Positions 1 to 19,156 of a DNA stretch of 64,000 nt are shown piece after piece. The stretch is from Rhodococcus qingshengii JCM 15477 (GTDB lineage: Bacteria; Actinomycetota; Actinomycetes; Mycobacteriales; Mycobacteriaceae). A program made the position numbers and the translations under genes. Every line of letters begins with the position of its first letter. Position 1 is the stretch's first letter. The stretch lies in NCBI RefSeq assembly GCF_023221595.1, contig NZ_CP096563.1, forward strand, positions 6,257,001 to 6,321,000, given 5' to 3'. The notes beneath the pieces were generated by a model that made no database searches, was not told where the DNA came from, and saw nothing but the letters and a program-made list of their open reading frames with translations.

Positions 1-336
1 CGTCCCGCGGTTACGGATCGTGGGGTGCGCTACCAACTGCAGAGCACGGTTCAGCAGAGGCTGGACTCGACGAGCACCTTCGTCGGCCGCCAGCACCGAG
101 TGCGTGGCCAGGGCCTGGAACCGCACTCCTTCGTCTTCGGACGAGGTCACCGAAGCGAGGTTCGGGATCGATCCGATGTCGACGATGTGGGCGGGCGCGG
201 CGAGGCGCATGGACAGCAGCGGCACAAGCGATTGCCCACCGGCGAGCACCTTCCCCTCGTGAGAGACCTCGGAGAGGATTCGGCACGCGTCCTCGACCGA
301 GGACGGTCGGTGATAAGTCAGCGGCGACGGTTTCAT
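1..336 (-). CDS. Molybdenum hydroxylase FAD-binding (medium) subunit, partial
   Basis: The reading frame is open from an ATG at 336 to the window edge, so only the first 112 residues are present. They begin MKPSPLTYHRPSSVEDA and contain the FAD-loop signature AGGQSLVPLLSMRLAAP (about residues 33-49), followed by HIVDIGSIP and, at the edge, HPTIRNRGT. This is the hallmark order of the CoxM/XdhB-type FAD subunit of xanthine dehydrogenase-family enzymes, which pass electrons from a molybdenum centre through iron-sulfur clusters to FAD. The stop of the downstream permease set lies only 90 bases from this start, in the same direction, so it looks like the next gene of the barbiturase operon. I infer that it belongs to the uracil/thymine dehydrogenase that makes barbiturate. 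A xanthine or carbon-monoxide-type dehydrogenase subunit remains possible. The large and small subunits should lie beyond position 1. Confidence 0.85.
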   Translation of the reverse strand, partial: MKPSPLTYHRPSSVEDACRILSEVSHEGKVLAGGQSLVPLLSMRLAAPAHIVDIGSIPNLASVTSSEDEGVRFQALATHSVLAADEGARRVQPLLNRALQLVAHPTIRNRGT

Positions 337-425
337 TACTTAATCCTGCCTCTATGAGTCACTTCACGTTTTGTGCAGATGTGACAACGGTCACGGGTCA
401 TACCTGGCATACATTCAACTTGGCA

Positions 426-1865
426 TCACGTGAGCTGCGCCACGGGCTCTTCGCGTTCGTCATCTGACGCATTCGCCCCCGGCGTTGCGCCCGGCCGCCT
501 GCCGGACTTCGGCCTGTTCAGTTCAGGGTTCCAGGACCCCACGAGCCGGCAGAGGTGGTACATCACGATCAAGACGATGGTGCCGAGCGCGATACCTCCG
601 AGCGAGAACGTGTCACTGAACTTCAGCGCCGTGTCGCCGATACCGATGATCAGACCGGCGGCAATCGGCATCAGATTCAGCGGGTTCCCGAAGTCGACGC
701 CGTTCTCTTTCCAGATCTTGGCGCCGAGCAGACCGATCATGCCGAACAGAACCACAAGAATTCCGCCCAGGACGCCGCCGGGCGTCGCCGCCATGACTGC
801 TCCGAACTTGGGCGAGAAGCCGAGCAGGATCGCGATGAAACCCGCAATCACGTACGCGGCGGTCGAGTACACCCGCGTGGCAGCCATGACACCGATGTTC
901 TCGGCATGCGTCGTCGTAGGGGAGCCGCCTACTGCGCTGGCGATGGCGGTGGCAAAACCGTCACCGGCAATGGCGCGTCCGATGTACGGGTCGAGATCGT
1001 CGCCCGTGATCTCGGCGACGGCCTTGACGTGTCCGGCGTTTTCCGCGACCAGTGCGATGACACCGGGAAGCACCAGAACGATGAACGTGAGGCTGAACGA
1101 GGGAGCGTGGATACCGACGATCCCGTTGGCTTCGTCCGAGAACGGCGGCAACCCGAACCAGGACGCCGAGTGCACCGAATCCCAGTTGACACGAAAGTGC
1201 TCGGTGGGTGCGCCACTACCACTGGCGGACGTGATCGGACCGGAGAGCCGGTCGAGGACCCACGAGAAGATGTAGCCGAAAACCAGCGCGACGAGAATGG
1301 CGATACGTCCCAGGAAGCCGCGTAGCGCAACGCTCATCACGATCAGTGCAACCATCACGATCAGTGCCACCCACTGATCCTGCGGCCAGTACAACCCCGC
1401 GACAACGGGCGCCAGGTTGAAGCCGATCAACATCACCACAGCGCCGGTGACCACCGGCGGTAGCGCTTTACTGATGACGCCACCGCCGAGAAAGTGGATG
1501 GCGATGCCGACGAATCCCAGAACCAACCCCGACACCAGAATCGCACCGGTCACTTCGGCCGTCGTTCCACCTTGGGCACGAATGGCGGCAACGCCACCGA
1601 CAAAAGCTGCGGATGTTCCGAGGTAGCTAGGGACGTGCCCCTTGACCACCAGCAGGAAGAAGAGCGTACAAAAGCCTGACATCATCACGGCAAGTTGAGG
1701 ATTGAGGCCCATGATGATCGGGAAGACGAACGTCGCGCCGAACATCGACACGACATGCTGGCCGCCCAACCCGATGGTTCTCGCCCAACTGAGTCGCTCG
1801 CCGGGAGCGACCACTTCACCGGCTCCGATGTTCTTTCCGTCTCCGTGCAACGTCCAGATCGGCAT
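426..1865 (-). CDS. Uracil/xanthine-type permease (NCS2 family), copy 1
   Basis: A 479-residue polytopic membrane protein of the nucleobase:cation symporter-2 family. It has about 12-14 hydrophobic segments, the GLNPQLAVMMSGFCTLFF stretch after TM1, and the family signature around AENAGHVKAVAEITGDDLDP and GGSPTTTHAENIGVMAATRVYS. It likely imports uracil or thymine for the oxidative pathway encoded around it. I start at the ATG at 1865 (MPIWTLHGDG), which has GAAAGG a few bases upstream. The longer open frame to 1994 lacks family similarity. It closely resembles the second permease at 11884-13317, with most differences in the C-terminal tail and one extracellular loop. Exact substrate (uracil, thymine, barbiturate or xanthine) cannot be read from the sequence. 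Confidence 0.9.
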   Translation of the reverse strand: MPIWTLHGDGKNIGAGEVVAPGERLSWARTIGLGGQHVVSMFGATFVFPIIMGLNPQLAVMMSGFCTLFFLLVVKGHVPSYLGTSAAFVGGVAAIRAQGGTTAEVTGAILVSGLVLGFVGIAIHFLGGGVISKALPPVVTGAVVMLIGFNLAPVVAGLYWPQDQWVALIVMVALIVMSVALRGFLGRIAILVALVFGYIFSWVLDRLSGPITSASGSGAPTEHFRVNWDSVHSASWFGLPPFSDEANGIVGIHAPSFSLTFIVLVLPGVIALVAENAGHVKAVAEITGDDLDPYIGRAIAGDGFATAIASAVGGSPTTTHAENIGVMAATRVYSTAAYVIAGFIAILLGFSPKFGAVMAATPGGVLGGILVVLFGMIGLLGAKIWKENGVDFGNPLNLMPIAAGLIIGIGDTALKFSDTFSLGGIALGTIVLIVMYHLCRLVGSWNPELNRPKSGRRPGATPGANASDDEREEPVAQLT

Positions 1866-2011
1866 GACGAGACCTTTCGCAAAGGAGGAAGGTGTTCGAA
1901 ATGCTTTGTGCCCCAGCCCACAAACACCGTGTCTGGAGTGAAACGCTAATGCAGGACCGAGATTCGGACGTGATGACAATCTGCCAGAACCCACTCACCG
2001 AGATTGGCAAC
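1866..2011 (-). promoter_or_regulatory. Permease 1 upstream region with blocks shared with permease 2
   Basis: No gene lies here. Reading toward permease 1, two blocks are shared exactly with the same place upstream of permease 2: positions 1967-1994 match 13420-13447 (28 of 28 bases), and 1933-1948 match 13386-13401 (CTGGAGTGAAACGCTA as written on the plus strand). The rest of the gap is similar but less strict. The likely meaning is a conserved promoter plus regulator site, plausibly for a PucR protein because a pucR gene sits directly upstream of permease 2. Conservation may also partly reflect recent duplication. Confidence 0.55.
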
Positions 2012-2148
2012 AATGGTGGCAGATGATGCGGGCAGGGGTCATCGTCAGTGTTGGAGGCAGTTTCGACCGAAATGAGGACCACGCCACGAAGGGCCCAAAC
2101 ATTTTCTTCGGCTTAATGATTCCGTAACACGATGTCTGTCAACGGAAA
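2012..2148 (-). pseudogene. Decayed 3' end of a pucR-type regulator gene
   Basis: This stretch aligns without gaps to the last part of the pucR gene at 13466-15109. By hand, about 57 of 90 bases match between 2053-2142 and the equivalent stretch near 13505-13594. In the pucR frame the minus strand reads about SCYGIIKPKKMFGPF, where the intact protein has LRYRVVKLEKMLGPF, with a TGA in place of the codon region for the conserved HYN helix-turn-helix motif. The rest of the regulator is gone, replaced by the aminotransferase gene that ends at 2158. It is a fossil showing that a pucR-permease unit was duplicated here. It is unlikely to be expressed as protein. Confidence 0.75.
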
Positions 2149-2157: not shown

Positions 2158-3381
2158 CTAGCCGAGGGCTGCGAGGATCCCTGCTGCCATCTCCGCGACC
2201 TGATCATCTGTCATGACGAACGTCGGCGAAATCTGCATCGCACCCTGACCCGCGGCGCGACCCGAAATACCTTGCTCGCGAAGCGTCTTCACGAACGGCA
2301 ACGCCTCCGCCGGATCAGCCAACTGCACCGCAGCGACCGCACCGAGCCCACTACGAACCTCCGCCACCCGCGGATGCTCCGCCAACGGCTGCAGATGCGT
2401 ATGCAACGACGCCTCCAAACGCTTCGACTCCGCGAGCAGATTCTCACGCTCGAGAATGTCCAGGTTCGCCATCGCCGCCGCAGCAGCACCGGCATGCCCG
2501 CCGTACGTGTAACCATGACGCCACCACGAACCCGCATAGAACGGCTCCGCCACCCGCGGCGCGATGAACACCGCACCCATCGGAACGTAACCCGACGTCA
2601 AACCCTTTGCCGTGGTCATCATGTCCGGCTGCAAATCGAAACGAGTGGACGCGAACCACTCACCACCGATCCGGCCGAAACCGGTCACGACCTCGTCGAC
2701 GACAAACAGAATGTCGTGCTCACGGCAGATGTCACGCACCTCCGCCAGATACCCCTCCGGCGGCAGATACACCCCACCCGCACCGATGATCGGCTCCGCG
2801 AAGAACGCAGCGATCTTGTTCGCACCGATCTTCTCGATCAACTCGAGCAGACTCTTCGCATCATCCCAGCCGACGGTCGCCGCATCCGCCATCAGCTCGC
2901 CGTACCCCTCACGGTTCACCGGAATACCAGCGAGAGCCGTTCCGGCAACGTGCATTCCGTGATACGCCTTCTGGCGTCCGACGATGATCGTCTTCTCCGG
3001 CTGCCCCACCTCGTGCCAGTACCGGCGAGCCAGCTTCGCCGCAGTGTCCACCGAATCCGAACCACCCGAGGTGAAGAAGATCTTGCTCCCGGCAACCGGC
3101 GCGATGGCCGCCAACCGCTCGGCCAACACCTGCGTGGTTTCGGGAACGAAATCACCGAAGTTGGAGAAATGAGCGATCTTCGACAACTGAGCCGCTACCG
3201 CATCCGCGATCTCCGTGCGCCCGTGCCCGACATTGGTGAACCACAGGCCCGCCGTCGCATCCAGATACCGAGTGCCCTCGCGGTCCCAGATGTACGCGCC
3301 CTCACCGCGTGAGACGACAAACGCGCCGTTCTTCTCCACAGCGCCCATGTCCGCGAACCCGTGCCACAATGCCGAAGCCAT
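2158..3381 (-). CDS. Class III PLP-dependent aminotransferase
   Basis: A 407-residue fold-type I aminotransferase. Visible are the N-terminal region with YLDATAGLWFTNVGHG, the cofactor phosphate site FTSGGSDSVDTAAKLARRY (about residues 103-121), the AYHG motif, the aspartate pocket LFVVDEVVTGFGRIG, and the PLP lysine in TTAKGLTSGYVPMG. The family transfers amino groups between omega-amino acids (beta-alanine, GABA, putrescine) or amines and keto acids. It sits 40 bases after the amidase on the same strand, so it is probably in the barbiturase operon. A role with beta-alanine/malonate semialdehyde or 3-aminoisobutyrate would connect it to pyrimidine breakdown, but that is inference. It is about 40 residues shorter than typical omega-transaminases, mainly at the N-terminus. 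Confidence 0.88.
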   Translation of the reverse strand: MASALWHGFADMGAVEKNGAFVVSRGEGAYIWDREGTRYLDATAGLWFTNVGHGRTEIADAVAAQLSKIAHFSNFGDFVPETTQVLAERLAAIAPVAGSKIFFTSGGSDSVDTAAKLARRYWHEVGQPEKTIIVGRQKAYHGMHVAGTALAGIPVNREGYGELMADAATVGWDDAKSLLELIEKIGANKIAAFFAEPIIGAGGVYLPPEGYLAEVRDICREHDILFVVDEVVTGFGRIGGEWFASTRFDLQPDMMTTAKGLTSGYVPMGAVFIAPRVAEPFYAGSWWRHGYTYGGHAGAAAAAMANLDILERENLLAESKRLEASLHTHLQPLAEHPRVAEVRSGLGAVAAVQLADPAEALPFVKTLREQGISGRAAGQGAMQISPTFVMTDDQVAEMAAGILAALG

Positions 3382-3421: not shown

Positions 3422-4900
3422 TCAGTTCACGCGGAGTGCGGGCGGAAGAACCCGCTCGACCCACTGGGTTGCCTGCTCGAATGCGTAGGCGAGTTGGAGT
3501 ACGTCCAAGTCGGCTCCGTGCCGACCGATGATCTGGATACCCATGGGAAGCGAACGATCGTCGAAGCCGACCGGCATCCCCGCAACCGGAACCCCGGCCA
3601 TCGTCCAGGGAACAACCGTCTCCATCCACCGGTGATACGTGTCCATCGATCGGCCGTCGACGGTCTCGGGCCAGTGAGTGTTCTTGTCGAAAGGAAACAC
3701 CTGGGCACTGGGCGCAAGAATGTAGTCGTAGGTTTCGAACATCTTGGTAATGGCCGACAGCCAGCCGTTGCGGGCCTCCGCGGCCTTGGTCACGTCGAGA
3801 GCCGACAGTGTGACCGCGTGCTCGAGTTCCCACAACAGTTCGGGCTTCATCAACTCGCGCAAGCTCGGATCGTTGTACTGATCGATCAAGCCGAGCTGTG
3901 CCCACCAACGCCACCGCAAGAACAGTTGCCAGATGTCCTCGGGTTTGAAGTCGGGAAGCGCCGCCTCGACGCGGCACCCCAACTGTTCGAAGACCTCGAA
4001 CGAGGATTCGCACAACTCGAGAACTCCAGGTTCGGTTGCCAGGTAACCGTTCCAGTCACCGACCCATGCGATCCGAGAGCCCTTCAGAACACGTGCGAGG
4101 CTTTCGGTGAATACCGCGGGATCCTCACGAATCCCCAACGGTGCATAAGCATCCGGCCCCGCCATCGTGGAAAGCAGGTGAGCCACGTCGGTGACGGTTC
4201 GGCCCATCGGGCCCACAACGGCGCCCTGAGCGATGAATCCCGTCTCCGGTATCCGACCCCAGGATGGTCGAAACCCAACAACGTTGTTGAATGCCGACGG
4301 GTTTCGGAGCGAACCCATGTAATCGCTTCCATCAGCCACCGGCAACATGCGGAGCGCCAACGACGCTGCGGCGCCACCGCTGCTACCGCCGGCAGTGCGC
4401 GAATTGTCGTACGGCGACACCGTCGTACCCCACACCGGGTTGTACGTCTGGGATCCGAGCCCGAACTCCGGTGTGTTCGTCTTGCCGATCACAATGGCAC
4501 CGGCAGACCTGATCCGCTTGACGAACAGTTCGTCATCTTCGGCGATTCGGTCCGCGAACATCGGCGACCCGGACGTGAACGGCAGACCCTTGGCTGCCGA
4601 AAGATCCTTCACCGCATGCGGAAACCCGTGCATCCAACCGAGATACTCCCCACTCGCCAACTGCGAATCACGCTCGCGCGCCTCCGCCGTCAACGCTTCC
4701 CGATCCCGCAATGCGACGATCGCGTTCACCGCCGGGTTATGTAATTCGATCTGATCGAGGAAGCTGTCCATCACCTCGACACACGACACTTCACGCCTGC
4801 GTATCAGACCACTGAGCGTGACCGCATCGGCCATGACGAGTTCGCGATTCTCGGGCGCACCGGAAACGCTCTCGTCGACAGGGTCAGCAGCATGAACCAT
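3422..4900 (-). CDS. Amidase-signature hydrolase, candidate ureidomalonase
   Basis: A 492-residue amidase-signature enzyme with an intact Ser-cisSer-Lys triad: lysine in HAVKDLSAAKG, cis-serine in RTAGGSSGGAAA, and nucleophile serine in DGSDYMGSLRNPSA. The start at 4900 has GAAAGG about ten bases before the ATG; the longer open frame to 5149 runs back over the barbiturase end. It follows the barbiturase gene by 125 bases on the same strand. In R. erythropolis, barbiturate is opened to ureidomalonate, which a separate amidohydrolase, ureidomalonase, cleaves to malonate and urea. Position makes this the best candidate for that step, since no other uncommitted hydrolase sits in this operon. The family is broad, so the substrate assignment is an inference. 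Confidence 0.85.
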   Translation of the reverse strand: MVHAADPVDESVSGAPENRELVMADAVTLSGLIRRREVSCVEVMDSFLDQIELHNPAVNAIVALRDREALTAEARERDSQLASGEYLGWMHGFPHAVKDLSAAKGLPFTSGSPMFADRIAEDDELFVKRIRSAGAIVIGKTNTPEFGLGSQTYNPVWGTTVSPYDNSRTAGGSSGGAAASLALRMLPVADGSDYMGSLRNPSAFNNVVGFRPSWGRIPETGFIAQGAVVGPMGRTVTDVAHLLSTMAGPDAYAPLGIREDPAVFTESLARVLKGSRIAWVGDWNGYLATEPGVLELCESSFEVFEQLGCRVEAALPDFKPEDIWQLFLRWRWWAQLGLIDQYNDPSLRELMKPELLWELEHAVTLSALDVTKAAEARNGWLSAITKMFETYDYILAPSAQVFPFDKNTHWPETVDGRSMDTYHRWMETVVPWTMAGVPVAGMPVGFDDRSLPMGIQIIGRHGADLDVLQLAYAFEQATQWVERVLPPALRVN

Positions 4901-5025: not shown

Positions 5026-6135
5026 CTACTGACCGAGATCGACGATGGCAGCGACTGGGCCGCCGCCCTCGGGACCCTGGTGCGCTGCCGATACCGAGAC
5101 GAACACTGCCGGATCGCCGGTGACAGCTGCCGTGACTCCGCCGACACACGACTTGATCTGGCGGTGCCAGTGCACGTCGGAGTCGTCGAGCATCGCATTA
5201 CGACGGCCACGGACCGTTCCGTCCTGACTGGCCTCGCACTTCAAGAACACGTTGACGAGTTGACCGTCCAGGTCGCTCGAGTGCGGCCGCTCCGGAAGTT
5301 CGAGTCCGGCGTCACGGATCGCCGCCCAGATGCCGTCCTGGTCGAGCGGATCCTTCATCACGCTGTGGCCGATCCGGTAGCGTCCGCCGACGCCACGTGC
5401 GTTACCGACGACGACGATCTGCGCGCGGTCCAACTCGACGCCGGACGAGCAGGATGCGACAGAGGAGAAGAGTTCGCGGCTGTGCATGACATCCTCGTCG
5501 GTCGGCATGTCGATTTCGCCGAGCGCAACCGCGATCCCCAGAGCCGTTCCGCCGTTGGACAGGTCCATCGACTCATGAGTCTGTTCGGTCCACACAGTCT
5601 TGCCGCGGCTCTTGGCGTCACGGATGGTGTGAATTGTCAGCAACGGAGTCTTGGTCTGTACGTAGTGCACGTCGGCGGGATCGGTGATGCCGGCATTGGC
5701 CATCGCGTCTTTCACTGCCGCAGCAACTTTGGTGATCATGGCCGTACGGCCGATGTCCTCGGGCAGCAGTTGCTCACTCATGGCGACACCCACGGTCAGG
5801 CGCGGCTCGTCGGTCTTGGTGACCTTGTCTGCCGGCACGGTCGCGAAGATCGTCGCGTGCGGGCTGATCACGCCGTCCGTGCCGCCGGACCAGACGATCG
5901 GCACCTCCGCCACTTCTTCGGGGCTGCGATTACCCTTGGCGGAGAGAACCTCTCGGAACGCTCGGTCCGCGATGATGCGCGTGTAGTCGTTGACGCCGCC
6001 GTTACCCTCGGTTTTGCCGATGACTGCAATGACGCGGTCGGCCTCGAGGACACCGTCGTCGATCAGCTTGGCGAGCTCACTGGCGTCGGAGACGCTGTGT
6101 AGCGGAACCTTACGGACCTCGATTGCTTCGGGCAT
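5026..6135 (-). CDS. bar: Barbiturase (ring-opening amidohydrolase)
   Basis: A 369-residue member of the cyanuric acid hydrolase/barbiturase family, made of three similar repeats. Each repeat ends in a lysine/serine-bearing block: [16 protein letters not shown], the central [24 protein letters not shown] with [13 protein letters not shown], and the C-terminal [20 protein letters not shown] and [28 protein letters not shown]. It opens barbiturate to ureidomalonate and is a cytoplasmic enzyme of oxidative pyrimidine breakdown. Two ATGs are six bases apart; AAGGAG abuts the first, so the second (6135) has the correct spacing and is chosen. It heads the minus-strand operon and diverges from upp. 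Cyanuric acid hydrolase would be the alternative, but upp, the permease and molybdenum-enzyme genes nearby favour barbiturase. Confidence 0.93.
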
Positions 6136-6358
6136 TGGCATCTCCTTGTATAGGGAATCGTGGAGGCAAAATTGGGCCTTGACAGCTCCGGGCGCCCAGT
6201 CCAGCCGAGCGGTTCGGAACTGCCGTGTCGACCACGCTATGACGACTCGAACCCATCGGCATCGTCAATACTTGCCCAAACGAAAACCGCGATTGGTTAT
6301 TTCGACTCCGAATCACCGGTTGTGCGCCGCCCCATCGGTTCTCACTTACGATTCGACC
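6136..6358. promoter_or_regulatory. Divergent bar/upp promoter region
   Basis: The 223-base gap must hold both promoters. On the plus strand a TANNNT -10-like hexamer (TACGAT, 6347-6352) ends exactly six bases before the upp ATG, with no ribosome binding site, which suggests a leaderless upp transcript. I see no obvious long palindrome. Confidence 0.4.
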
Positions 6359-6982
6359 ATGGACACCACTGTTGTCGACCATCCGCTGGCGGCATCGCTG
6401 CTCACGACCATGCGCGACGCTCGCAGCGACAACGCAACGTTCCGGTCCGCCTTGCGCAGACTGACCCATATGTTGGTCTACGAGGCCATGCGCGGCGCAA
6501 AACTGGAACAGTTCGACATCGAGACGCCAGTTGCTCCGACGCTGGGGGTGCGGCTGGCGAATCCACCACTCCTGGTCCCGGTCTTGCGAGCGGGCCTCGG
6601 CATGGTCGAACAGGCGAGTGCCCTCATTCCGCAGGCAGGCGTCGGTTTCGTGGGAATGGCACGAGACGAGAAGACACACCAGCCGGTTCCGTATCTGGAG
6701 TCCCTGCCTGCTGATCTGTCGAGCACCCCCGTCTACGTCCTCGATCCGATGTTGGCGACCGGTGGATCCATCGTCCGCACAATCGATCTGCTCATTGCAC
6801 GCGGAGCCACCGATGTGACTGCAATATGTGTCGTCGTGGCTCCGGAAGGGATCGAAGCACTGAAGAACTCCGGACATCCGGTCCGGCTCCTCACAGCGAG
6901 CATCGACGACGGCCTGAACGAAAATGCTTTCCTGATACCTGGACTCGGAGACGCGGGCGATCGCCAATTCGGGCCGCGGTAG
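6359..6982 (+). CDS. upp: Uracil phosphoribosyltransferase
   Basis: A 207-residue type I phosphoribosyltransferase that joins uracil to PRPP to give UMP (pyrimidine salvage, cytoplasm). Visible are the [14 protein letters not shown] block, [21 protein letters not shown], the PRPP loop [21 protein letters not shown] (about residues 125-145), and the uracil-binding [21 protein letters not shown] tail. Length matches the family. The ATG at 6359 fits homologues that begin near [14 protein letters not shown]; upstream in-frame codons are not needed. It diverges from barbiturase and precedes a pucR gene, so imported uracil can go either to salvage (upp) or to breakdown. Confidence 0.95.
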
Positions 6983-7034
6983 TTGGCAGACATACGGAGA
7001 ACCGCTCATTCCGAGAGGCTATTTTCGTCAACTG

Positions 7035-7068: not shown

Positions 7069-7074
7069 CGCGAC

Positions 7075-8772
7075 ATGGATAGATCTGCCAAATATTCGAG
7101 CGAAGAGCTTCAACATTTGCCAGAAGGTGGCGACTACAGACTCACAGTTCGGGATGTCCTCGAGCTGCCCAGTCTGCGTGGAGCCGAAGTCCTTGCCGGG
7201 CACGGGGGCTTGCGCCACCTCGTTCAATCGGTGAACGTGATGGAAGTACCGGACATCCTCGCTTGGGTGAAGCCGAACGAGTTGTTGGTGACAACCGGGT
7301 TCCCGCTGCGCTACGGGCGAACCGGCGAGCTTCTCGACGACACAGATCTCAGTGACCTCGTCGACGGTCTTGCACGTCGAGGAGTCGCGGCACTTGCCGT
7401 GAAAACGGGCCGTTATCTCGACGAGCTGCCCGAGGCGATGCTGCACATGGCAGAGCAGCGAGGGCTTCCGCTGTTGGTTCTTCCCGTCACCGCGGGATTC
7501 GACGAGGTGATCTCGGAGGTCTTCACCAAGTTGGTGGCGAAGCAGTCCGCGGCACTCGACATTGCCGATCGACTTCACCGCTCGTTGACGTCGATCGTCT
7601 TGGAAGGTGGCGATCTACCTCAGATTGCCGCAGAATTCGCCGCGCTTTTCGACGTCAGCGTTCTCATCTGCTCGCCGGACGGAAGAGTGTTGACGGAGGC
7701 CGGAGATTCAGCCGCGCTGAACGCGCTTCCGTTGTTCGAAAGCACCGGTCGGTTCCTGACCGAACGGGTCGCTGTCGGTTTACAGAACGCGCCCAAAGGA
7801 TTTCCTGGTCAGTTGGCGCTCACCCGGGTGGTGGCCGGCGGCACCGACCACGGCCGAATGGTGGCGTACGCCGGCACCCACGAACTCGGCGCAGTTGTCG
7901 TTCAAGCGCTGGAGCGAGCGGCCACCGTTGCCGCGCTGGCCGTCACCAAACAGCTGGCAGTTGCGGCAGTGGAATCCAAGTTCCGCGGCGACTTCCTCCG
8001 CGACGCACTGATAGGCGAAGCCGGCTCGCCAGCGGAAGTGAGCGCGCACTTCACCCAGTTGGGGTGGGATGTCACTCGTCCACTTACCGTTGTGGTTGCA
8101 GAACTCGACGTCGATCACCCGGAATCCCAGCACGCGAATTCCACTCGCACGGACCAAGATCGACTCAGCGACGGCTGGCAACAAGTGGTACGAACACACG
8201 AGCGGACAGCGCCGTCCGTCGGGTTTCGACACGAGGTGGTCACGCTTTTCCCGACCAGCACCGACCGTGCGGTTCGGGACATCGAAGGGTTGGTGCGCAA
8301 GGTTGCCGGCGATCGCACCAGCGGCCGCCGATCCTTCAGCACGGGAGTGAGCCGGGTGATCTACTCCCTGGCCGATCTACCCGCGGCCTACGACCAAGCC
8401 TGTACAGCCGTGGTCGTCGGCCGACGTATCAACGGGCCGGGGCAGATCGCACACTTCGACGAACTCGGTGTACACCGACTCCTCTCGCTCCAGACGGACA
8501 AGAGCGAACTGCGTTCGTTCACCGATGACGTTCTGAAGTCCTTGTCGGCGGACAACGCCGAAGCCGCTGACCTGCGTCTGACACTCCAGACCCTGCTCGA
8601 CTGCAATTGCAATGTCGCCGAGGCCTCCCGGGCGCTACACATGCACTACAACACTTTGCGTTACAGAATCGGAAAGCTGGAGAGCGTCGTCGGATCGTTC
8701 ACCGACGACCCCGTCCTTCGATTGAACGTCTCACTCGCCCTGCAGGTCATGAAGATGCACGAAATGTCATGA
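7075..8772 (+). CDS. PucR-family transcriptional regulator 1
   Basis: A 565-residue PucR-type regulator. The N-terminal purine-catabolism domain is visible at VRDVLELPSLRGAEVLAGHGG and VMEVPDILAWVKPNELLVTTGFPL. A middle GGDEF-like degenerate domain follows (region of RSFSTGVSRVIYSLADLPAAYDQA), and the C-terminal helix-turn-helix reads DCNCNVAEASRALHMHYNTLRYRIGKLE. PucR proteins usually sense purine or pyrimidine pathway intermediates and activate catabolic genes. Its place between upp and the CoA transferase/carboxyltransferase pair suggests that it controls pyrimidine breakdown. It is only distantly similar to the second PucR at 13466-15109, so they are paralogues with possibly different effectors. 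Confidence 0.93.
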   Translation: MDRSAKYSSEELQHLPEGGDYRLTVRDVLELPSLRGAEVLAGHGGLRHLVQSVNVMEVPDILAWVKPNELLVTTGFPLRYGRTGELLDDTDLSDLVDGLARRGVAALAVKTGRYLDELPEAMLHMAEQRGLPLLVLPVTAGFDEVISEVFTKLVAKQSAALDIADRLHRSLTSIVLEGGDLPQIAAEFAALFDVSVLICSPDGRVLTEAGDSAALNALPLFESTGRFLTERVAVGLQNAPKGFPGQLALTRVVAGGTDHGRMVAYAGTHELGAVVVQALERAATVAALAVTKQLAVAAVESKFRGDFLRDALIGEAGSPAEVSAHFTQLGWDVTRPLTVVVAELDVDHPESQHANSTRTDQDRLSDGWQQVVRTHERTAPSVGFRHEVVTLFPTSTDRAVRDIEGLVRKVAGDRTSGRRSFSTGVSRVIYSLADLPAAYDQACTAVVVGRRINGPGQIAHFDELGVHRLLSLQTDKSELRSFTDDVLKSLSADNAEAADLRLTLQTLLDCNCNVAEASRALHMHYNTLRYRIGKLESVVGSFTDDPVLRLNVSLALQVMKMHEMS

Positions 8773-11883: not shown

Positions 11884-13317
11884 TCACGTGAGTTGCTTGG
11901 CGGGTTCCTCCCGATCGCCGCCGGGAGTCTTCGAATCCGGCTTGTTCGGTTCCGGATTCTTCGCATTCAGTTCCGGGTTCTTCGAACCGATGAACTGGCA
12001 CAGGTGGTACATCCCGATCACGACGATGGTGCCGAGCGCGATCCCGCTGAGCGAGAACGTGTCACTGAACTTCAGAGCCGTGTCGCCGATACCGATGATG
12101 AGGCCGGCCGCGATCGGCATGAGGTTGAGCGGATTGCCGAAGTCGACGCCGTTCTCCTTCCAGATCTTCGCGCCGAGCAGACCGATCATGCCGTAGAGCA
12201 CCACGGTGATTCCGCCGAGAACACCGCCGGGCGTCGCCGAGATGACGGCACCGAACTTGGGGGAGAAGCCGAGCATCATGGCGACGATGCCGGCAACCGC
12301 GTAGGCGGCGGTGGAGTACACACGGGTCGCTGCCATGACACCAATGTTCTCGGCGTACGTCGTGGTGGGCGAACCGCCGACGCTGCTGGCGATAGCGGTG
12401 GCGAAACCGTCACCGGCGAGCGCACGTCCCATGTACGGGTCGAGGTCGTCCCCGGTCATCTCGGCCACGGCCTTGACGTGGCCCGCGTTCTCCGCGATCA
12501 ACGCGATGACACCCGGAAGGACCAGGATGATGAACGTGAGGCTGAACGACGGAGCGTGGATGCCGACGATTCCGTTGGCCTCGTCCGAGAACGGGGGAAG
12601 GCCGAACCACGACGCCGACTGCACCGAATCCCAGTTGACGCGGAAGTGCTCGGTGATCTGACCGGTGCCTGCGTCGTAGGAGGTGATCGTCCCCGAGACC
12701 CGGTCGAGGATCCAGGAGAGGACGTAACCGAAGATCAGCGCCAGGAAGATGGCGATGCGCGCCATGAAGCCTCGTAGCGCGATACTCATGACGATCAGGG
12801 CCACCATGACGATCAGAGCCACCCACTGGTCCTGTGGCCAGTACAGCCCCGCGACGACGGGTGCCAGGTTGAATCCGATCAGCATCACCACTGCGCCGGT
12901 CACCACCGGGGGAAGAACCTTGAATACGACCCGGCCACCGAGGAAGTGGATCGCGATACCGATGGCTGCCAGGACCAGTCCGGACACCAGGATCGCGCCG
13001 GTCACCTCTGCGGACGTTCCGCCTTGGGCACGAATGGCGGCGATACCGCCGACAAAGGCCGCCGACGTACCGAGGTAGCTAGGAATGCGTCCCTTGACCA
13101 CCAGCAGGAAGAAGAGCGTACAAAAGCCCGACATCATCACGGCAAGTTGAGGATTGAGCCCCATGATGATCGGGAAGACGAACGTCGCGCCGAACATCGA
13201 CACCACGTGCTGGCTGCCCAGCCCGATGGTTCTTCCCCAGCTGAGCCGCTCGCCGGGAGCGACCACTTCACCCGGTCTGATGTTCTTTCCATCTCCGTGC
13301 AACGTCCAAATCGGCAT
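11884..13317 (-). CDS. Uracil/xanthine-type permease (NCS2 family), copy 2
   Basis: A 477-residue multi-pass NCS2 transporter, nearly the same as the copy at 426-1865 over the whole core (MPIWTLHGDGKNI onward, AENAGHVKAVAEMTGDDLDP, GGSPTTTYAENIGVMAATRVYS). Differences cluster in the loop near residue 230 (TSYDAGTGQITEHF here against TSASGSGAPTEHF) and in the charged tail. The start at 13317 has GAAAGGTCCC upstream, as in copy 1. It lies directly downstream of a pucR gene on the same strand, which probably preserves the original arrangement from which copy 1 arose. The two copies may differ in affinity, in substrate (uracil against thymine or xanthine) or only in regulation. Confidence 0.9.
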   Translation of the reverse strand: MPIWTLHGDGKNIRPGEVVAPGERLSWGRTIGLGSQHVVSMFGATFVFPIIMGLNPQLAVMMSGFCTLFFLLVVKGRIPSYLGTSAAFVGGIAAIRAQGGTSAEVTGAILVSGLVLAAIGIAIHFLGGRVVFKVLPPVVTGAVVMLIGFNLAPVVAGLYWPQDQWVALIVMVALIVMSIALRGFMARIAIFLALIFGYVLSWILDRVSGTITSYDAGTGQITEHFRVNWDSVQSASWFGLPPFSDEANGIVGIHAPSFSLTFIILVLPGVIALIAENAGHVKAVAEMTGDDLDPYMGRALAGDGFATAIASSVGGSPTTTYAENIGVMAATRVYSTAAYAVAGIVAMMLGFSPKFGAVISATPGGVLGGITVVLYGMIGLLGAKIWKENGVDFGNPLNLMPIAAGLIIGIGDTALKFSDTFSLSGIALGTIVVIGMYHLCQFIGSKNPELNAKNPEPNKPDSKTPGGDREEPAKQLT

Positions 13318-13385
13318 GATGGGACCTTTCGTGCAGAGGAAGGTGTCCGAACGCTGAGTGTGCTCCAGCTCACAAAACACCGTGA

Positions 13386-13447: not shown

Positions 13448-13465
13448 GGACTCGGATTGGCAATA

Positions 13466-15109
13466 TTAGTGATTGATGCCGCGCATCGCGGTTATCTTCA
13501 GTGCTAGAGACAGATCCAGCCGGAGCTCGGGTTGCGCCGTGAAGGGTCCAAGCATTTTCTCCAGCTTAACGACCCTGTAACGCAGTGTGTTGTAATGGAA
13601 GTGGAGCTTGCGCGCTGTCTCGGCGATGTTGATGTTGGTCGCGAGCAAGACTTCCAATGTCTTGCGCATGTCCTGCGCTTCGGCAGTTTCCTCCGTCAGT
13701 TCCCGCAGTGTCTCCCGCGCGAACGTCTCCAGCTCGTTTTCGTCCTCGACCAGACTGAGCAGTCTGTACACACCGAGATCGTCGAACTGAGTCACCGTCC
13801 ACGGACCGGAGATCCGGCGTCCGACGGTCAGTGCGGTGCGCGCCTGACTGTAGAGCGCCGGAACGGCGTCGATCGCCGCTGTCGGCCGGGACACCCCGAC
13901 ACTGAACGGCCTTCTCCCGCCGCCACCTTCACCGCGAACGACCGTGACGAGGTCCCGCACCAATGCCATCGTGTCGGTGCCGACGCCCATCACGATCACC
14001 GTCTCGCCCGTCAGCGCGGTCACCGCCGCACCGGGATCGCGGTGGGCGATCGCGCCGGAGAACGCCATCGCCTGGCGATCGACGACGGGCAGCCGAGCGG
14101 GCGCCGCAGAGGCCGGTTCGTCGATCGGGTCCGGCTCGATCGAGACGATCACCAGCGGGCGGTCGAAGTCCCAACCGAATGTCTTGGCATGGGAGACAAC
14201 GTGATCGTGGTCCCCGGCCCGACCGAGGAGCAGGTCGTGAACGAAGTTGGCGCGATGGCGTTCCTCCACCGACGCCACGGCTTGTTCGCGGGTGATGACC
14301 AACGCACACACCGACGCGGCCCGCTCGACCAGGTACTGGTCGTAACTCGTCATCACGCGCTCACCGGTGAACAACGCGAGACGCCCGTGGTCGATGTGAT
14401 TGGCGGAAATCGCGGACACCGCGATGAATTGACCGTCGAACTCGTGCAGACCCAATCCGCCCTCGACGGTGTCGGTCCGCAGACGACCGGTGGAATCGAC
14501 GGCGGGACAGGCAGACAGATGCTTGCGCTCCGCGGCGTCCCCGGCGCGGCAGATCTCGCGTCCGTCCGAGGTGGTGATCAGGGCAGCGCCCTTCATCTCC
14601 CGAGCGATGACTTCGGTCAATTGCGGGAGGCCGCCGCCGCCCATCACGACGTCGACCAGCAGCCGTCGCAAGCGCTCGGCCCCGAACATGGCGTCGATCT
14701 GGGCCGACTCCGTCTGCTCACGGTCTCTCGCCGCAGGGTGATCACACGCACCGTGAAAAACCAGGAGCGGGAAGCCGGCGCTTTCGGCCGCGTCGACCAG
14801 CTCCGGCGCGAGAGTGTCCCCGTCTGCGCCGAATTGGACGGCAAGTGCCGCAACACCTCGCGTCGACAACCGTCCGACAAATGCTTTGAAGGTTTCGGTG
14901 ACCCTGGCGAGGGTTTCCGGCGTGGTGATCAGCAACTGTCCGTGCCGCAGCCACGGTCCGATGTCCGGAACCGCCATGAATCCCACCCGGGCTACCGTCG
15001 GGTCTTCGCAGCCGCCGGCGACCTTTCGAACACCAGGAAGGAGCTGGGTTCGAAGAAGTTCGGAGAGAACAGCATTCACCTCGGATGCCGGTACGGCCGG
15101 GTTTGCCAC
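13466..15109 (-). CDS. PucR-family transcriptional regulator 2
   Basis: A 547-residue PucR-type regulator. The N-terminal domain includes VARVGFMAVPDIGPWLRHGQLLITTPET and GVAALAVQFG. The GGDEF-like middle contains GGRRPFSVGVSRPTAAIDAVPALYSQARTA in overlapping pieces, and the C-terminal helix-turn-helix is TNINIAETARKLHFHYNTLRYRVVKLEKM. It starts at a GTG (15109); no strong binding site is visible. The stop lies 148 bases before permease 2, with conserved promoter blocks in between. Its 3' end has a degraded twin at 2012-2148. It probably controls permease 2 and perhaps xdhC, which is transcribed toward it from upstream. The effector is unknown; a purine or pyrimidine intermediate is the family expectation. 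Confidence 0.92.
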   Translation of the reverse strand: MANPAVPASEVNAVLSELLRTQLLPGVRKVAGGCEDPTVARVGFMAVPDIGPWLRHGQLLITTPETLARVTETFKAFVGRLSTRGVAALAVQFGADGDTLAPELVDAAESAGFPLLVFHGACDHPAARDREQTESAQIDAMFGAERLRRLLVDVVMGGGGLPQLTEVIAREMKGAALITTSDGREICRAGDAAERKHLSACPAVDSTGRLRTDTVEGGLGLHEFDGQFIAVSAISANHIDHGRLALFTGERVMTSYDQYLVERAASVCALVITREQAVASVEERHRANFVHDLLLGRAGDHDHVVSHAKTFGWDFDRPLVIVSIEPDPIDEPASAAPARLPVVDRQAMAFSGAIAHRDPGAAVTALTGETVIVMGVGTDTMALVRDLVTVVRGEGGGGRRPFSVGVSRPTAAIDAVPALYSQARTALTVGRRISGPWTVTQFDDLGVYRLLSLVEDENELETFARETLRELTEETAEAQDMRKTLEVLLATNINIAETARKLHFHYNTLRYRVVKLEKMLGPFTAQPELRLDLSLALKITAMRGINH

Positions 15110-15211: not shown

Positions 15212-16327
15212 TCAGGCCGTTCGATGCAGGGCGGTCGGATTCTCCTGAGGTGGCGGGTGGATCGGCCCCTGCAGATCCCGCAGTTCCAAACCGGAGGCAT
15301 TGCGCAGGGTCTTGGTCATCTCGGCGAGGATCGACACTGCAGTCTCCTCAGGTGTCCTCGCGCCGAGATCCAACCCGATCGGTGAGTGCAGACGCCCCAA
15401 CTCGACGTCGGTGACGCCTCGCTCCTTCAACAGCGCCACCCGACGCTCATGCGTCGCACGACTTCCCATCGCGCCGACGTACGCAGCCGGCGAACGCAGC
15501 GCGATCTCGAGCAGGGGGATGTCGAACTTCTCGTCGTGCGTGAGCACGGCCAGGACGGTTTTGTTGTCGATCGGTGCGGTTTCGAGGAACTTGTGTGGCC
15601 ACATGACGACCAGATCGTGGGCGTCGGGGAAGCGCGCCCGTGTCGCGAAGACCGGCCGTGCGTCCACGACGGTCACGCGATAACCCGCAAAGGCGCCCAA
15701 CGTACACATCGAGGCCGCGAAGTCGATGGCCCCGAACACGTACATCCGCGGTAGTGGCGCGAAGATCTCGACCAGCAGGTCGTGCTGCGAATCGATGAGA
15801 GTTCCCGCCGGCGCGACAAAAGCGACGGACTCACCGGTGTCCATCGTGCGCAGCAGGATGGACACCTCGTCCTCCGTGGCATCCAGATCTCCGCTGCGTC
15901 GGCCGTGCTCGACGACGAGGTGCCGTGCCGGTGCTCCCGGACGCACTTCGGTGACCACGACGACGGGCGTATCGGCCTCGATCCGTTCACAAACCTGACC
16001 GAACTCGACGAAATCGGCTCCGACGGCCTGGACGAACACTTCGATGGTTCCGCCGCAGGTCAGCCCTACTCCGATGGCGTCGTCGTCGGAGACGCTGAAG
16101 ACCTCGACGCGACTGGTGCCGTCGGCGAGAACCTCCTGGGCGATCTCGTACAGTGCACTCTCGATACACCCGCCCGAGACGCTGCCGACCACCTCGCCGG
16201 AGCGTGAGACGGCCATCGAAGCACCGGGCATGCGCGGTGAGGATCGCCAGGTACGGACAACCGTCGCCAGTGCAAAATCCTCGCCGCGGGCGTGCCACTG
16301 CGCCAGCTGAGTGGAAATGTCGCGCAT
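15212..16327 (-). CDS. xdhC: XdhC/CoxI-family molybdenum-cofactor maturation protein
   Basis: A 371-residue XdhC-type chaperone that sulfurates or inserts the molybdenum cofactor into xanthine dehydrogenase-family enzymes. The N-terminal XdhC/CoxI domain has ATVVRTWRSSPRMPGASMAV, the GSVSGGCIESALYEIAQEVL signature and GVGLTCGGTIEVFVQ with its conserved cysteine. The C-terminal Rossmann-like domain has MYVFGAIDFAASMCTLGAFAGYRVTVVDARP in overlapping pieces and AYVGAMGSRATHERR. The start at 16327 has GGGAGG upstream; the open frame to 16387 is less likely. Its presence implies that the molybdenum enzyme whose FAD subunit begins at 336 needs a sulfurated cofactor and is the probable client. It diverges from CoA transferase 2. 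Confidence 0.92.
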   Translation of the reverse strand: MRDISTQLAQWHARGEDFALATVVRTWRSSPRMPGASMAVSRSGEVVGSVSGGCIESALYEIAQEVLADGTSRVEVFSVSDDDAIGVGLTCGGTIEVFVQAVGADFVEFGQVCERIEADTPVVVVTEVRPGAPARHLVVEHGRRSGDLDATEDEVSILLRTMDTGESVAFVAPAGTLIDSQHDLLVEIFAPLPRMYVFGAIDFAASMCTLGAFAGYRVTVVDARPVFATRARFPDAHDLVVMWPHKFLETAPIDNKTVLAVLTHDEKFDIPLLEIALRSPAAYVGAMGSRATHERRVALLKERGVTDVELGRLHSPIGLDLGARTPEETAVSILAEMTKTLRNASGLELRDLQGPIHPPPQENPTALHRTA

Positions 16328-16609: not shown

Positions 16610-17797
16610 ATGGACCAATTGCTCAGCGGTATCAAAGTTCTCGACCTCACCCGTGCTCTCGCGGGCCCTCTGTGCACGTCGCTGCTCTCGGACTTCGGCG
16701 CCGACGTGGTCAAGGTCGAAACCCGTGGCTCCGGCGACAGTTCACGTCAGTGGCCGCCGTTCGACGGCGATCGAAGCCTCTACTTCGCTTCCGTGAACCG
16801 CGGCAAACGGTCGATCGCCATCGACATGCGCAGTGACCGCGGGCGGAAACTGCTTCGCAGCCTGGCCCTCGACGCAGATGTGCTGGTCGAGAACTTCCGT
16901 CCGGGAGTACTGGCCGACATGGGGCTCGATCCCGACTCGCTCGAGCAGGAGAATCCCGGGCTCGTCGTGATGAGCATCAGTGGTTTCGGCCCGGTGGGCC
17001 CGGACCAGTTCGCGCCCGGACTCGATCAGGTGGCCCAGGGTATGTCCGGGCTGATGTCGGTCACCGGTGCCGGGGAACAGACCCCGATGCGGGTCGGTAT
17101 CCCCATCATCGACACGGTCTCGGGCATCTACGCAGCGCTGGGCATCACGGCGGCGCTTGCCTCTCGCGGTCGCGACGGTCGTGGGCACCGCGTGCAGACC
17201 TCGTTGCTGGAATCCGCGATCTCGATCATGACCTTCCAGGCGCAGGACTACCTGAGCACCGGGCGGGTTTCGACGCCGAACGGCAATACGCACCCGACGA
17301 TCACGCCGTACGGCGCTTTCGACACTGCCGACTTCCCGATCAACATTGCGACCGGCTCGGACAAGCACTGGATCGCACTGTGCTCGGTACTCGGTGACCC
17401 CGAGCTCGCCTTCCGTACCGAATATGCCACGGGTAAAGAACGTTTGGCGCACCGAGACCAACTGACCAAAGAACTCGAGGACCTACTGACCACGAAGGGC
17501 GCGGCGCAATGGATCTCCGAGATCCGCGGTGCCGGAATCCCCTGCGGCCCCATCCATTCGATCGATCAGGTGTTCTCCGACCCGCAAGTCGAGGCATTGC
17601 AGATGGTCGAGCAGACCCAGAGCGCCGACGGAACGTCGATTCCCGTTGTCCGCGGACCGTTCTGGGTGGACGGCAAGACCCTTCCCGTCAGGAATGCGCC
17701 ACCCATGACTCTCGGCGGTGACGCCGACGACGTACTCACCGACTTCGGCCTGCGCCCGGAGGAGATCGAGGATCTTCGCGCAAATTCGGTGATCTGA
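16610..17797 (+). CDS. CaiB/BaiF type III CoA transferase 2
   Basis: A 395-residue type III CoA transferase: MDQLLSGIKVLDLTRALAGP, DFGADVVKVETRG, NRGKRSIAIDMRSDRGRKLL, and the catalytic aspartate in APGLDQVAQGMSGLMSVTG. It is more similar in layout to CoA transferase 1 (9062-10288) than to the one at 36149-37378. The chosen ATG at 16610 matches the family start; 13 extra codons upstream are possible. It is followed by a TetR regulator with its own operator and then an enoyl-CoA hydratase. It may act on methylmalonate from thymine breakdown, in parallel with malonate from uracil, but no residue proves this. Divergent from xdhC with a 282-base gap. Confidence 0.86.
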   Translation: MDQLLSGIKVLDLTRALAGPLCTSLLSDFGADVVKVETRGSGDSSRQWPPFDGDRSLYFASVNRGKRSIAIDMRSDRGRKLLRSLALDADVLVENFRPGVLADMGLDPDSLEQENPGLVVMSISGFGPVGPDQFAPGLDQVAQGMSGLMSVTGAGEQTPMRVGIPIIDTVSGIYAALGITAALASRGRDGRGHRVQTSLLESAISIMTFQAQDYLSTGRVSTPNGNTHPTITPYGAFDTADFPINIATGSDKHWIALCSVLGDPELAFRTEYATGKERLAHRDQLTKELEDLLTTKGAAQWISEIRGAGIPCGPIHSIDQVFSDPQVEALQMVEQTQSADGTSIPVVRGPFWVDGKTLPVRNAPPMTLGGDADDVLTDFGLRPEEIEDLRANSVI

Positions 17798-17806: not shown

Positions 17807-17832
17807 AGTAACAGAGCAGACGCTCTGTTACT
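17807..17832 (+). promoter_or_regulatory. Palindromic operator of the TetR gene
   Basis: Perfect 11-base arms AGTAACAGAGC and GCTCTGTTACT with a 4-base spacer, ending eight bases before the tetR ATG. A TACTGT hexamer (17829-17834) that overlaps the right arm lies six bases before the ATG with no ribosome binding site, so a bound repressor would block a leaderless promoter. Autoregulation is the simplest reading. Confidence 0.8.
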
Positions 17833-17840
17833 GTGCGTTC

Positions 17841-18500
17841 ATGCCTCGGCCACGCGTCCACGACCTCGACACCCTGCTCGACGCTGCCGAAAAACTTGCC
17901 GCCACTGCCGGGCCGAGCGCTGTCACGGTCCGGGCAGTCTCCGACGCCACCGGTGTATCCAACGGGGCGATCTATCACGCATTCGGCTCTCGCAGTGGAC
18001 TGGTCGGTAGCGCGTGGCTGCGTGCTGCGCGACGATTTCTCGCGCTTCAACAATCGAGAGTGGACGACGCTCTCGCGGACCCGTCGCCGACTTCGGCGGT
18101 TTCCGCCGTCGTCGCGGCCGCCGAAGTTCCGGCCGTCTTCGCGCTCGACTACCCACAATCCGCGTTGCTGCTGTTGACGATCCAGCGCGACGAACTGCTC
18201 GGCACCGACGTCCCTGCCGACATCGCCGAGCAACTCACACAACTCGACCGGTCTCTGGTCGAGTTGTTCATCCGGTTGTCGACCGCGCTCTGGGGCCGCA
18301 AGGACGGCAGAGCCGTCGAGGCAATCGAGGCCTGTGTTGTCGGCCTGCCTACCGGATTACTCATTCATCCCGCCAAACGCGCCGACGGTTGGCGAGTCCC
18401 CGACGCCGCAGCACGCGCGCGGTTGGATGCCGCCGTTCGAGCGGTTCTGCATCTCGACCCACCACTGCCCAAGCCACGCAACAGGAAAGGCCAATCATGA
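17841..18500 (+). CDS. TetR-family transcriptional regulator
   Basis: A 219-residue one-domain-plus-ligand-domain repressor. The N-terminal helix-turn-helix reads TVRAVSDATGVSNGAIYHAFGSRSGLVGSAW (two consecutive pieces, residues about 33-63). The rest is a helical ligand domain. Its stop overlaps the start of the enoyl-CoA hydratase gene by four bases (ATGA), so the two are co-translated and the hydratase is a likely target. The operator just upstream suggests that it represses its own operon, probably released by an acyl-CoA. The start codon seems leaderless. Confidence 0.9.
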   Translation: MPRPRVHDLDTLLDAAEKLAATAGPSAVTVRAVSDATGVSNGAIYHAFGSRSGLVGSAWLRAARRFLALQQSRVDDALADPSPTSAVSAVVAAAEVPAVFALDYPQSALLLLTIQRDELLGTDVPADIAEQLTQLDRSLVELFIRLSTALWGRKDGRAVEAIEACVVGLPTGLLIHPAKRADGWRVPDAAARARLDAAVRAVLHLDPPLPKPRNRKGQS

Positions 18501-19156
18501 CCGCAACTCTGCGCTTCGAAGACAAGATCGCCGTTCTCGATCTCGGCGAGGACGAGAATCGATTCTCGCCGGAGTGGCTCGATTCCGTCGACAAGCTACT
18601 CGACCAGGCTTTGAGCGAAAGCGCACATGCCCTGGTCACCACGGCGACGGGCAAGTTCTACTCCAACGGACTCGACCTCGACTGGCTGGGCGCGAACGGC
18701 GACAAGGCGAAGTGGTATGTGCAGCAGGTGCAGTCGCTGTTCGCCCGGATGCTGACGTTCCCGATGCCCACCGTCGCGGCGATCAACGGCCACGCCTTCG
18801 GAGCCGGCGCCATGCTCGGCATCGCGCACGATTACCGCGTCATGCGCGATGATCGCGGCTACTACTGCTTCCCGGAGGTGGACATCAACATCCCCTTCAC
18901 CGAAGGAATGGCAGCTCTCATCCAGGCCAAACTCAGCCCGGCGTCGGCAATCGTCGCCATGACCACGGGGCGGCGATACGGCGGAAGTGACGCATTCGCA
19001 GCCGGTTTGGTGGACTTCACCGCATCCGTCGACGCTTTGACCGCCAAGGCCATCGAAATGGTTGCACCGATCGGCCCGAAGAATGCGGGCACACTGGGGG
19101 CAATCAAGTCGACGATGTTCGCTTCAGTGGTCACCGCTCTGAACACCGACGGCTAG
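18497..19156 (+). CDS. Enoyl-CoA hydratase/isomerase family protein
   Basis: A 219-residue crotonase-fold protein, shorter than the usual 255-265. It has TTATGKFYSNGLDLDWLG, the oxyanion-hole block PMPTVAAINGHAFGAGAMLGIAHDYRVM and FPEVDINIPFTEGMAALIQ. Classic hydratases carry two glutamates in this region; here the second half reads PEVDINIPF, as in the delta3,delta2-enoyl-CoA isomerase-like group. It probably acts on an acyl-CoA in the same regulon as CoA transferase 2. The last 33 bases overlap, tail to tail, with the P-loop protein gene on the other strand. Confidence 0.85.
   Translation: MTATLRFEDKIAVLDLGEDENRFSPEWLDSVDKLLDQALSESAHALVTTATGKFYSNGLDLDWLGANGDKAKWYVQQVQSLFARMLTFPMPTVAAINGHAFGAGAMLGIAHDYRVMRDDRGYYCFPEVDINIPFTEGMAALIQAKLSPASAIVAMTTGRRYGGSDAFAAGLVDFTASVDALTAKAIEMVAPIGPKNAGTLGAIKSTMFASVVTALNTDG

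Follow-up and report, generated by a model that had tools for sequence, protein, structure and literature searches.

The closest described system to the locus studied here is the oxidative pyrimidine pathway of Rhodococcus erythropolis JCM 3132, the steps of which were reportedly set out by Soong in 2001 and 2002; a study from 2002 is also said to have noted already that upp adjoins the barbiturase gene bar. To our knowledge, no genes have been assigned to the dehydrogenase of this pathway, and none has been named for ring opening in its thymine branch. In the available part of the published account (PMC3758960), barbiturate is opened to ureidomalonate, which is cleaved to malonate and urea, and the scheme in that part names no HyuAB, carbamate kinase or dehydrogenase genes. 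The announcement of R. erythropolis CCM2595 (PMC3961730; a strain also listed as JCM3132) describes pyrimidines as a carbon source for it. Here we analysed a stretch of 64,000 nucleotides from Rhodococcus qingshengii JCM 15477 (the window, G000:C1:6257001-6321000; genome of 7.51 Mb in 6 contigs), together with its flanks. The locus resembles the JCM 3132 system in organism group, in a near-identical barbiturase, in the upp neighbour and in an amidase family partly named ureidomalonase, but it also includes a molybdenum (Mo) hydroxylase and the hydantoinase-type pair HyuAB.

HyuAB has relatives of its own. The caprolactamase CapAB, the valerolactam-opening OplAB and N-methylhydantoinase (PF05378/PF01968 with PF02538) have the same domains, adenosine triphosphate (ATP) motifs and four metal ligands as HyuAB. 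Using ATP and bicarbonate, such relatives hydrolyse cyclic amides with rings of five to seven members (PMC8453981, PMC11033972); one of them prefers a six-membered lactam and retained 10% activity with carbamoyl phosphate in place of ATP (PMC11033972). However, the alignment shows nothing in HyuB that corresponds to CapB's vicinal cysteine pair, and HyuAB was rejected as a caprolactamase because it missed the NCBIfam equivalog cut-offs by far (523 and 189 bits, where each model requires 1000). In comparison with the Rut pathway, the two permeases of the window resemble RutG, the only Rut protein compared, but scored 346 (perm1) and 356 bits against a cut-off of 759, under half; the window chemistry also differs in being oxidative, with a barbiturase.

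The results point to an actinobacterial oxidative pyrimidine island in which HyuAB is probably an integral part, as a second, ATP-dependent ring-opening enzyme acting most plausibly on 5-methylbarbiturate, and in which a barbiturase module lies inside a Mo-HyuAB module. The oxidative pathway is already known; the associations with HyuAB and carbamate kinase and the composite build are without report in the open-access literature searched. No report was found there of barbiturase with hydantoinase, of barbiturase with carbamate kinase, of a uracil dehydrogenase together with barbituric acid, of the composite build or of the thymine branch, most subscription papers lying outside that literature. 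The genes of the island are listed below (window positions unless given as C1, which lie outside the window).

1..336, minus strand: flavin adenine dinucleotide (FAD) subunit of the Mo hydroxylase, N-terminal part (300 residues in full; PF00941, PF03450)
426..1865 (wider span 426-1994), minus strand: perm1, NCS2 nucleobase permease (PF00860)
1995..2128, minus strand: decayed copy of the PucR2 3' end (DNA local score and C-terminal alignment with internal stop)
2158..3381, minus strand: class III aminotransferase (PF00202)
3422..4900 (open reading frame (ORF) to 5149; likely start near 4900), minus strand: amidase-signature hydrolase, probable ureidomalonase (PF01425, PRK07486, GGSSGG)
5026..6141, minus strand: barbiturase (PF09663; match to PDB 5hwe)
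6359..6982, plus strand: upp, uracil phosphoribosyltransferase (PF14681; TIGR01091 and PRK00129 over cut-off)
7075..8772, plus strand: PucR1 regulator (PF07905, PF13556, PF17853)
9062..10288 (wider span 8840-10288), plus strand: CaiB1, class III coenzyme A (CoA) transferase (PF02515, CoA_transf_3)
10264..11796, plus strand: AccDA, fused AccD-AccA-like carboxyltransferase (PF01039/PF03255)
11884..13317 (wider span 11884-13380), minus strand: perm2, NCS2 permease (PF00860)
13466..15109, minus strand: PucR2 regulator (PF07905, PF13556, PF17853)
15212..16327 (wider span 15212-16387), minus strand: XdhC-type Mo-enzyme maturation factor (PF13478, PF02625)
16610..17797 (wider span 16571-17797), plus strand: CaiB2, second class III CoA-transferase (PF02515)
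20508..21899 (wider span 20508-21974), minus strand, beyond 19156: amidase2 (PF01425)
C1:6255787-6256440, same strand as the FAD gene: iron-sulfur (Fe-S) subunit (PF00111, PF01799)
C1:6253268-6255790, same strand as the FAD gene: catalytic Mo subunit (PF02738, PF20256)
C1:6252600-6253271, same strand as the FAD gene: CoxG
C1:6250219-6252318, same strand as the FAD gene: HyuA (PF05378/PF01968)
C1:6248276-6250222, same strand as the FAD gene: HyuB (PF02538)
C1:6247428-6248261, same strand as the FAD gene: NmrA-like protein

Co-occurrence was measured in a class sample of 394 genomes, treated as a single set with handles and counts agreeing across searches, at thresholds of E ≤ 1e-80 for barbiturase, E ≤ 1e-100 for HyuB and E ≤ 1e-200 for the Mo subunit. 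Barbiturase was found in 76 genomes of 36 genera, HyuB in 78 and the Mo subunit in 76. Barbiturase and HyuB occurred together in 75 genomes, barbiturase without HyuB in one (G256), HyuB without barbiturase in three (G316, G073 and G158) and neither in 315. The corresponding counts for barbiturase and the Mo subunit were 74 with both, two with barbiturase only (G070 and G169), two with Mo only (G073 and G316) and 316 with neither. From genome to genome, HyuAB thus tracks barbiturase no less closely than the Mo dehydrogenase does. HyuB and barbiturase shared a contig in 55 of the 75 genomes and were at most 30 kb apart in 52; the association is therefore partly independent of close linkage. We also assembled a locus set, the best 80 of 494 stretches coding barbiturase relatives in a collection of genomes, which is tilted to close relatives because only these (at least 82% identity) were retained. 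HyuB was present at E ≤ 1e-100 in 49 of the 50 barbiturase genomes reached via these loci, the miss being Pseudonocardia acaciae (L047). That the ordinary published pathway is accompanied here by unrelated passengers, HyuAB among them, is very improbable: the published steps (summarised in PMC3758960) are enough on paper, but HyuB occurred in 75 of 76 barbiturase genomes against 3 of 318 others, and it is 74-85% identical outside the family with its ligands intact.

The exceptions showed which parts can be separated. G256 has barbiturase and the Mo subunit and lacks HyuB at the thresholds used. G316, listed as 100% complete, lacks barbiturase at E ≤ 1e-80 and the bar-type amidase at E ≤ 1e-60, and retains amidase2, CaiB2, XdhC, PucR2, a permease, the FAD, Fe-S and Mo subunits, CoxG, HyuA and HyuB. 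From these two patterns, the Mo hydroxylase looks like a hub, and barbiturase and HyuAB look like two separate second steps.

All three subunit types of the Mo hydroxylase are encoded: FAD (PF00941), two-[2Fe-2S] (PF00111, PF01799) and Mo-pterin (PF02738, PF20256). With its start at window base 336, the FAD gene (minus strand) continues past the window edge, its PF00941 domain covering C1:6256812-6257321 (window 1-321 and beyond). Overlaps of 4 to 7 bases join FAD to Fe-S, Fe-S to Mo, Mo to CoxG and HyuA to HyuB. The enzyme has the three-subunit layout and the CoxG and XdhC accessories in common with CO-dehydrogenase-like Mo hydroxylases such as quinoline 2-oxidoreductase (1t3q), and the Mo subunit exceeded the cut-off of just one of its listed NCBIfam models, the exception model 'CODH_aero_grp5'. 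Its presence in 74 of 76 barbiturase genomes makes the enzyme a candidate for the uracil/thymine dehydrogenase. Alternatively, the Mo hydroxylase and HyuAB could serve another N-heterocycle, with barbiturase joined to them through shared regulators and permeases only. Among solved structures, the Mo subunit is best matched by quinoline 2-oxidoreductase and 6-hydroxypseudooxynicotine dehydrogenase, which would fit this, as would the separability of the modules, which are ~361 kb apart in R. koreensis, together in R. erythropolis and reduced to one in G316. We hold this alternative to be improbable, given Mo in 74 and HyuB in 75 of the 76 barbiturase genomes across 36 genera; nor do we know of any other enzyme gene proposed as uracil dehydrogenase here, which also counts against it.

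Two loci carry further genes by XdhC, downstream of barbiturase: L025 (12523-15156) and L041 (12870-14882), both on the plus strand, encode a MoxR-type ATPase and a VWA-type protein, as judged by eye. L025 adds a MobA-like transferase, also by eye, and the arrangement is as in CO-dehydrogenase maturation clusters.

The catalytic motifs of HyuAB are intact. In the HyuA ORFs taken from the loci, the ATP-site motifs DxGGTxTD, DxGGT and GxxPGP (residues 11, 298 and 361 in our own HyuA) were all present in 32 of 32. The HyuB metal ligands D64, H118, D121 and H149 were invariant in all 32 aligned sequences (31 from loci and our own) and, by alignment with CapB, correspond to the caprolactamase ligands. 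A fixed letter-string test for HyuB was passed by 21 of 31, the ten failures shown all being on the string AHDF alone. Both the ATP-site motifs and the Asp-His-Asp-His ligands follow PMC8453981. The closest solved relatives of HyuAB were the N-methylhydantoinase 7hk5 and 6yra. We take 6yra to be CapAB. Names among the 120 HyuB relatives listed included hydantoinase B/oxoprolinase, N-methylhydantoinase B, 5-oxoprolinase and acetophenone carboxylase, and no pyrimidine-enzyme name was among those 120.

A different role for the pair would be that of an ATP-dependent amide hydrolase whose substrate would be ureidomalonate or its methyl analogue, formed once the ring is open, with the amidases finishing the reaction. 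The gene order of Nocardioides-type islands, in which an amidase gene directly precedes HyuA, speaks for this role, and so does the carbamate kinase, an enzyme handling carbamoyl phosphate, that adjoins barbiturase in 65 of 80 loci. However, the solved relatives with hydrolase names (N-methylhydantoinase, 5-oxoprolinase/hydantoinase) take those names from cyclic substrates, G316 has HyuAB and no barbiturase to supply ureidomalonate, and in Rhodococcus an ATP-free amidase probably already covers the step. We consider this role unlikely and prefer HyuAB as a second ring-opening enzyme. In L126, a nitrilase-superfamily-like protein (by eye; 6783-7700, plus strand) lies between CoxG and HyuA, the position of the amidase in Nocardioides-type loci.

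The composite build was seen by comparing gene orders. The order PucR2-permease-FAD-FeS-Mo-CoxG-HyuA-HyuB-NmrA is uninterrupted in R. jostii (L096), R. koreensis (L097), Rhodococcus sp. 14-1411-2a (L098) and G316 (L095), and in R. koreensis barbiturase lies ~361 kb from this module on the same contig. In the window, AccDA, CaiB1, PucR1, upp, barbiturase, the amidase and the aminotransferase lie between perm1 and perm2. The two permeases are 84% identical, with a DNA repeat between 517-2128 and 11966-13581, and next to perm1 stands the decayed PucR2 3' end (1995-2128), which gave a DNA local score of 53 (none of 200 shuffles exceeded 28) and a 48-residue alignment to the PucR2 C-terminus with an internal stop. 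This remnant is the footprint of the duplication that yielded two permeases; with the permease repeat, it places the barbiturase module inside the Mo-HyuAB module. In the permease tree, the G316 permease grouped with perm1 at 93/88, just under the mark of 95/80; the tree thus slightly favours the view that G316 has lost the barbiturase module. By DNA, the G316 permease was closer to perm2 in 16 of 18 blocks of 100 columns (columns 0-1799).

The genome holds a single PF09663 match, the window barbiturase (490 bits against a cut-off of 25; TIGR02714, 660 against 153). It equals the PDB entry 5hwe, 'Barbiturase', at 368 of 369 aligned residues, with one difference (806 bits), and the other PDB sequences scored at most 327 bits. 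The protein is 100% identical to the copy of Rhodococcus sp. P-2 and 99% identical to the R. erythropolis NBRC 15567 protein, and by this comparison the window belongs to the R. erythropolis clade. Because the cyanuric acid hydrolase equivalog NF052395 was likewise exceeded (477 bits against 360), it is the 5hwe match that decides the name. The adjacent amidase reached 711 bits with PRK07486 (cut-off 465), matches PF01425 and carries GGSSGG, which we take to be the amidase signature motif. Ten of the 120 amidase relatives listed bear the JGI name ureidomalonase, and by sequence the enzyme is a probable ureidomalonase, cleaving ureidomalonate to malonate and urea. It was rejected as a universal member of the pathway: across the 79 genomes with barbiturase, HyuB or Mo (all such genomes among the 394), our own copy alone exceeded 49% identity. 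Relatives of 60-74% were found in other actinobacteria among the matches listed.

In the scheme we infer for substrates and fluxes, the permeases would take up uracil or thymine, and the three-subunit Mo hydroxylase, with XdhC and CoxG, would oxidise them to barbiturate or 5-methylbarbiturate. Barbiturase would convert barbiturate to ureidomalonate and the neighbouring amidase would release malonate and urea from it; CaiB1 and AccDA would carry malonate through malonyl-CoA to acetyl-CoA. HyuAB would open an oxidised ring with ATP, most plausibly that of the thymine-derived 5-methylbarbiturate, and amidase2 and CaiB2 may act after it. Barbiturase is reported to be specific for barbituric acid; HyuAB fits the thymine gap because this specificity would leave 5-methylbarbiturate with no enzyme. 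Amidase2 is likely a part of the Mo-HyuAB module, as its matches of 61-62% within four Rhodococcus islands (L018-L021) and of 68% in G316 indicate; CaiB2 has a 76% match beside XdhC in G316.

The sequence-only reading had described the region as an oxidative uracil and thymine degradation island, and this is still the best reading, in view of the 5hwe match, the ureidomalonase-named relatives and the Mo subunit in 74 of 76 barbiturase genomes. Pfam bore out each of the permeases, XdhC, barbiturase, the adjacent amidase, upp, the two PucR regulators, the CoA-transferases and the carboxyltransferase that it had named; its FAD subunit is genuine (PF00941), but the window holds the N-terminal part only. 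The idea that every step lies in one place did not hold: two subunits, Fe-S and Mo, are encoded beyond the window edge, and the Pfam-scanned ORFs (30 window ORFs and neighbours, with no search of the whole genome) included neither a urease nor a urea amidolyase. Additions to its list are the aminotransferase, a TetR regulator, a crotonase-family protein, amidase2, HyuAB and the composite build.

Around barbiturase in the 80 loci (tblastn within ~10 kb, contig ends interrupting many loci), homologues of CaiB1 were found in 47, HyuB in 43, HyuA in 35, the amidase in 25 (11 at 77-98% identity and 14 at 39-43%), AccDA in 21, CoxG in 20 and Mo in 18. Clustering of ORFs showed another conserved barbiturase neighbour in 54 of the 80. 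Its L083 copy is a carbamate kinase by PRK12352 (334 bits against 266), with TIGR00746 just short (345 against 358). By blastp at 55% identity or more, this kinase stood directly before barbiturase in 65 of 80 loci, and in all 65 its end lay somewhere from 138 bases ahead of the aligned barbiturase start to 19 bases past it. In the class sample, at 60% identity or more and among the matches listed, 66 genomes had both genes, 10 had barbiturase only (our own included), two the kinase only and 316 neither; of these 66, 64 carry the kinase on the barbiturase contig, with the two starts no more than 1.2 kb apart. The window's type of amidase (at least 77%) was present in 11 of the 15 kinase-free loci and in none of the 65 with the kinase. 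Against the kinase, our own genome gave only a partial match of 34% (E 8.6e-5). One record, P0325, joins a carbamate-kinase-like N-terminal piece to barbiturase in one frame, a possible fusion or an effect of ORF calling.

Oxalurate breakdown of the AllFGH type proceeds via carbamoyl phosphate, with carbamate kinase taking part. Oxalurate has one carbon fewer than ureidomalonate, and the kinase beside barbiturase adds to the likeness; the differences are the weak kinase match of our own genome and the lack of a carbamoyltransferase of this type recognised by eye in L124-L127 (unlabelled ORFs, first 160 residues, no profile scan). A distinctly improbable further proposal is that HyuAB splits a pyrimidine ureide with ATP and frees carbamoyl phosphate, from which, in most of the actinobacterial loci, the kinase upstream (within ~140 bases of barbiturase) would regain ATP. 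Such a route would be energy-neutral and end in NH3 and CO2 instead of urea, with a urea-releasing amidase in the kinase's place in Rhodococcus. L047, which has the kinase beside barbiturase and no HyuB match at E ≤ 1e-100, is a counter-example to this route, and it also weakens the candidate explanation that the kinase depends on HyuAB.

AccDA scored best as accD/accA, yet under those cut-offs, and did not reach those of biotin-independent malonate decarboxylase (beta 53 against 278, gamma 23 against 237). At E ≤ 1e-60, relatives were found in 56 of 80 genomes surveyed from the 394 (43 with barbiturase, G316, G073, G158 and 34 others), including 13 of 16 genomes of the same family without barbiturase, and a second fused AccD-AccA paralogue, 62% identical, lies at G000:C1:4882364-4883854. 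AccDA was therefore ruled out as a specific marker of the pathway. Of the biotin-free carboxyltransferase proposed from the sequence, the gene itself stands, and its use as a marker of the pathway does not. It may catalyse malonyl-CoA decarboxylation or exchange; CaiB1 would convert malonate to malonyl-CoA and CaiB2 would act on methylmalonate.

Several points weigh against HyuAB as the thymine-branch ring-opening enzyme of this island. Fisher's exact test gave p < 1e-60 per gene pair with relatedness ignored, and HyuAB without barbiturase amounts to one complete genome (G316) and two of 80% completeness (G073 and G158). The proposed thymine branch varies between islands, CaiB2 not having been seen in L018-L021. 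A role of HyuAB in thymine use alone would lead us to expect more frequent loss than the single case among 76 barbiturase genomes. The kinase adjoining barbiturase has no place in the scheme, and AccDA is not pathway-specific.

Two other genes and an RNA element were recorded in the window. The genes, with no pathway link implied, are:

17841..18500, plus strand: TetR regulator (PF00440)
18497..19156, plus strand: crotonase-family protein (PF00378)

The RNA element is an msiK cis-regulatory RNA (RF01747) at 32076-32133 on the minus strand (48.2 bits; gathering score, 33). The class III aminotransferase (2158-3381, minus strand) sits within the barbiturase operon; it was found in 2 of 80 loci, and two more R. 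erythropolis-type loci stop short of its position.

As the missing parts of the oxidative pyrimidine pathway, the co-occurrence points to a single Mo hydroxylase and a single pair of ATP-dependent enzymes, and natural genomes that lack one or other part exist. If the proposed scheme is true, the two second-step enzymes, one ATP-free and one ATP-driven, and the alternative neighbours of barbiturase, an amidase or a kinase, would help to explain the differences in these clusters between genera.

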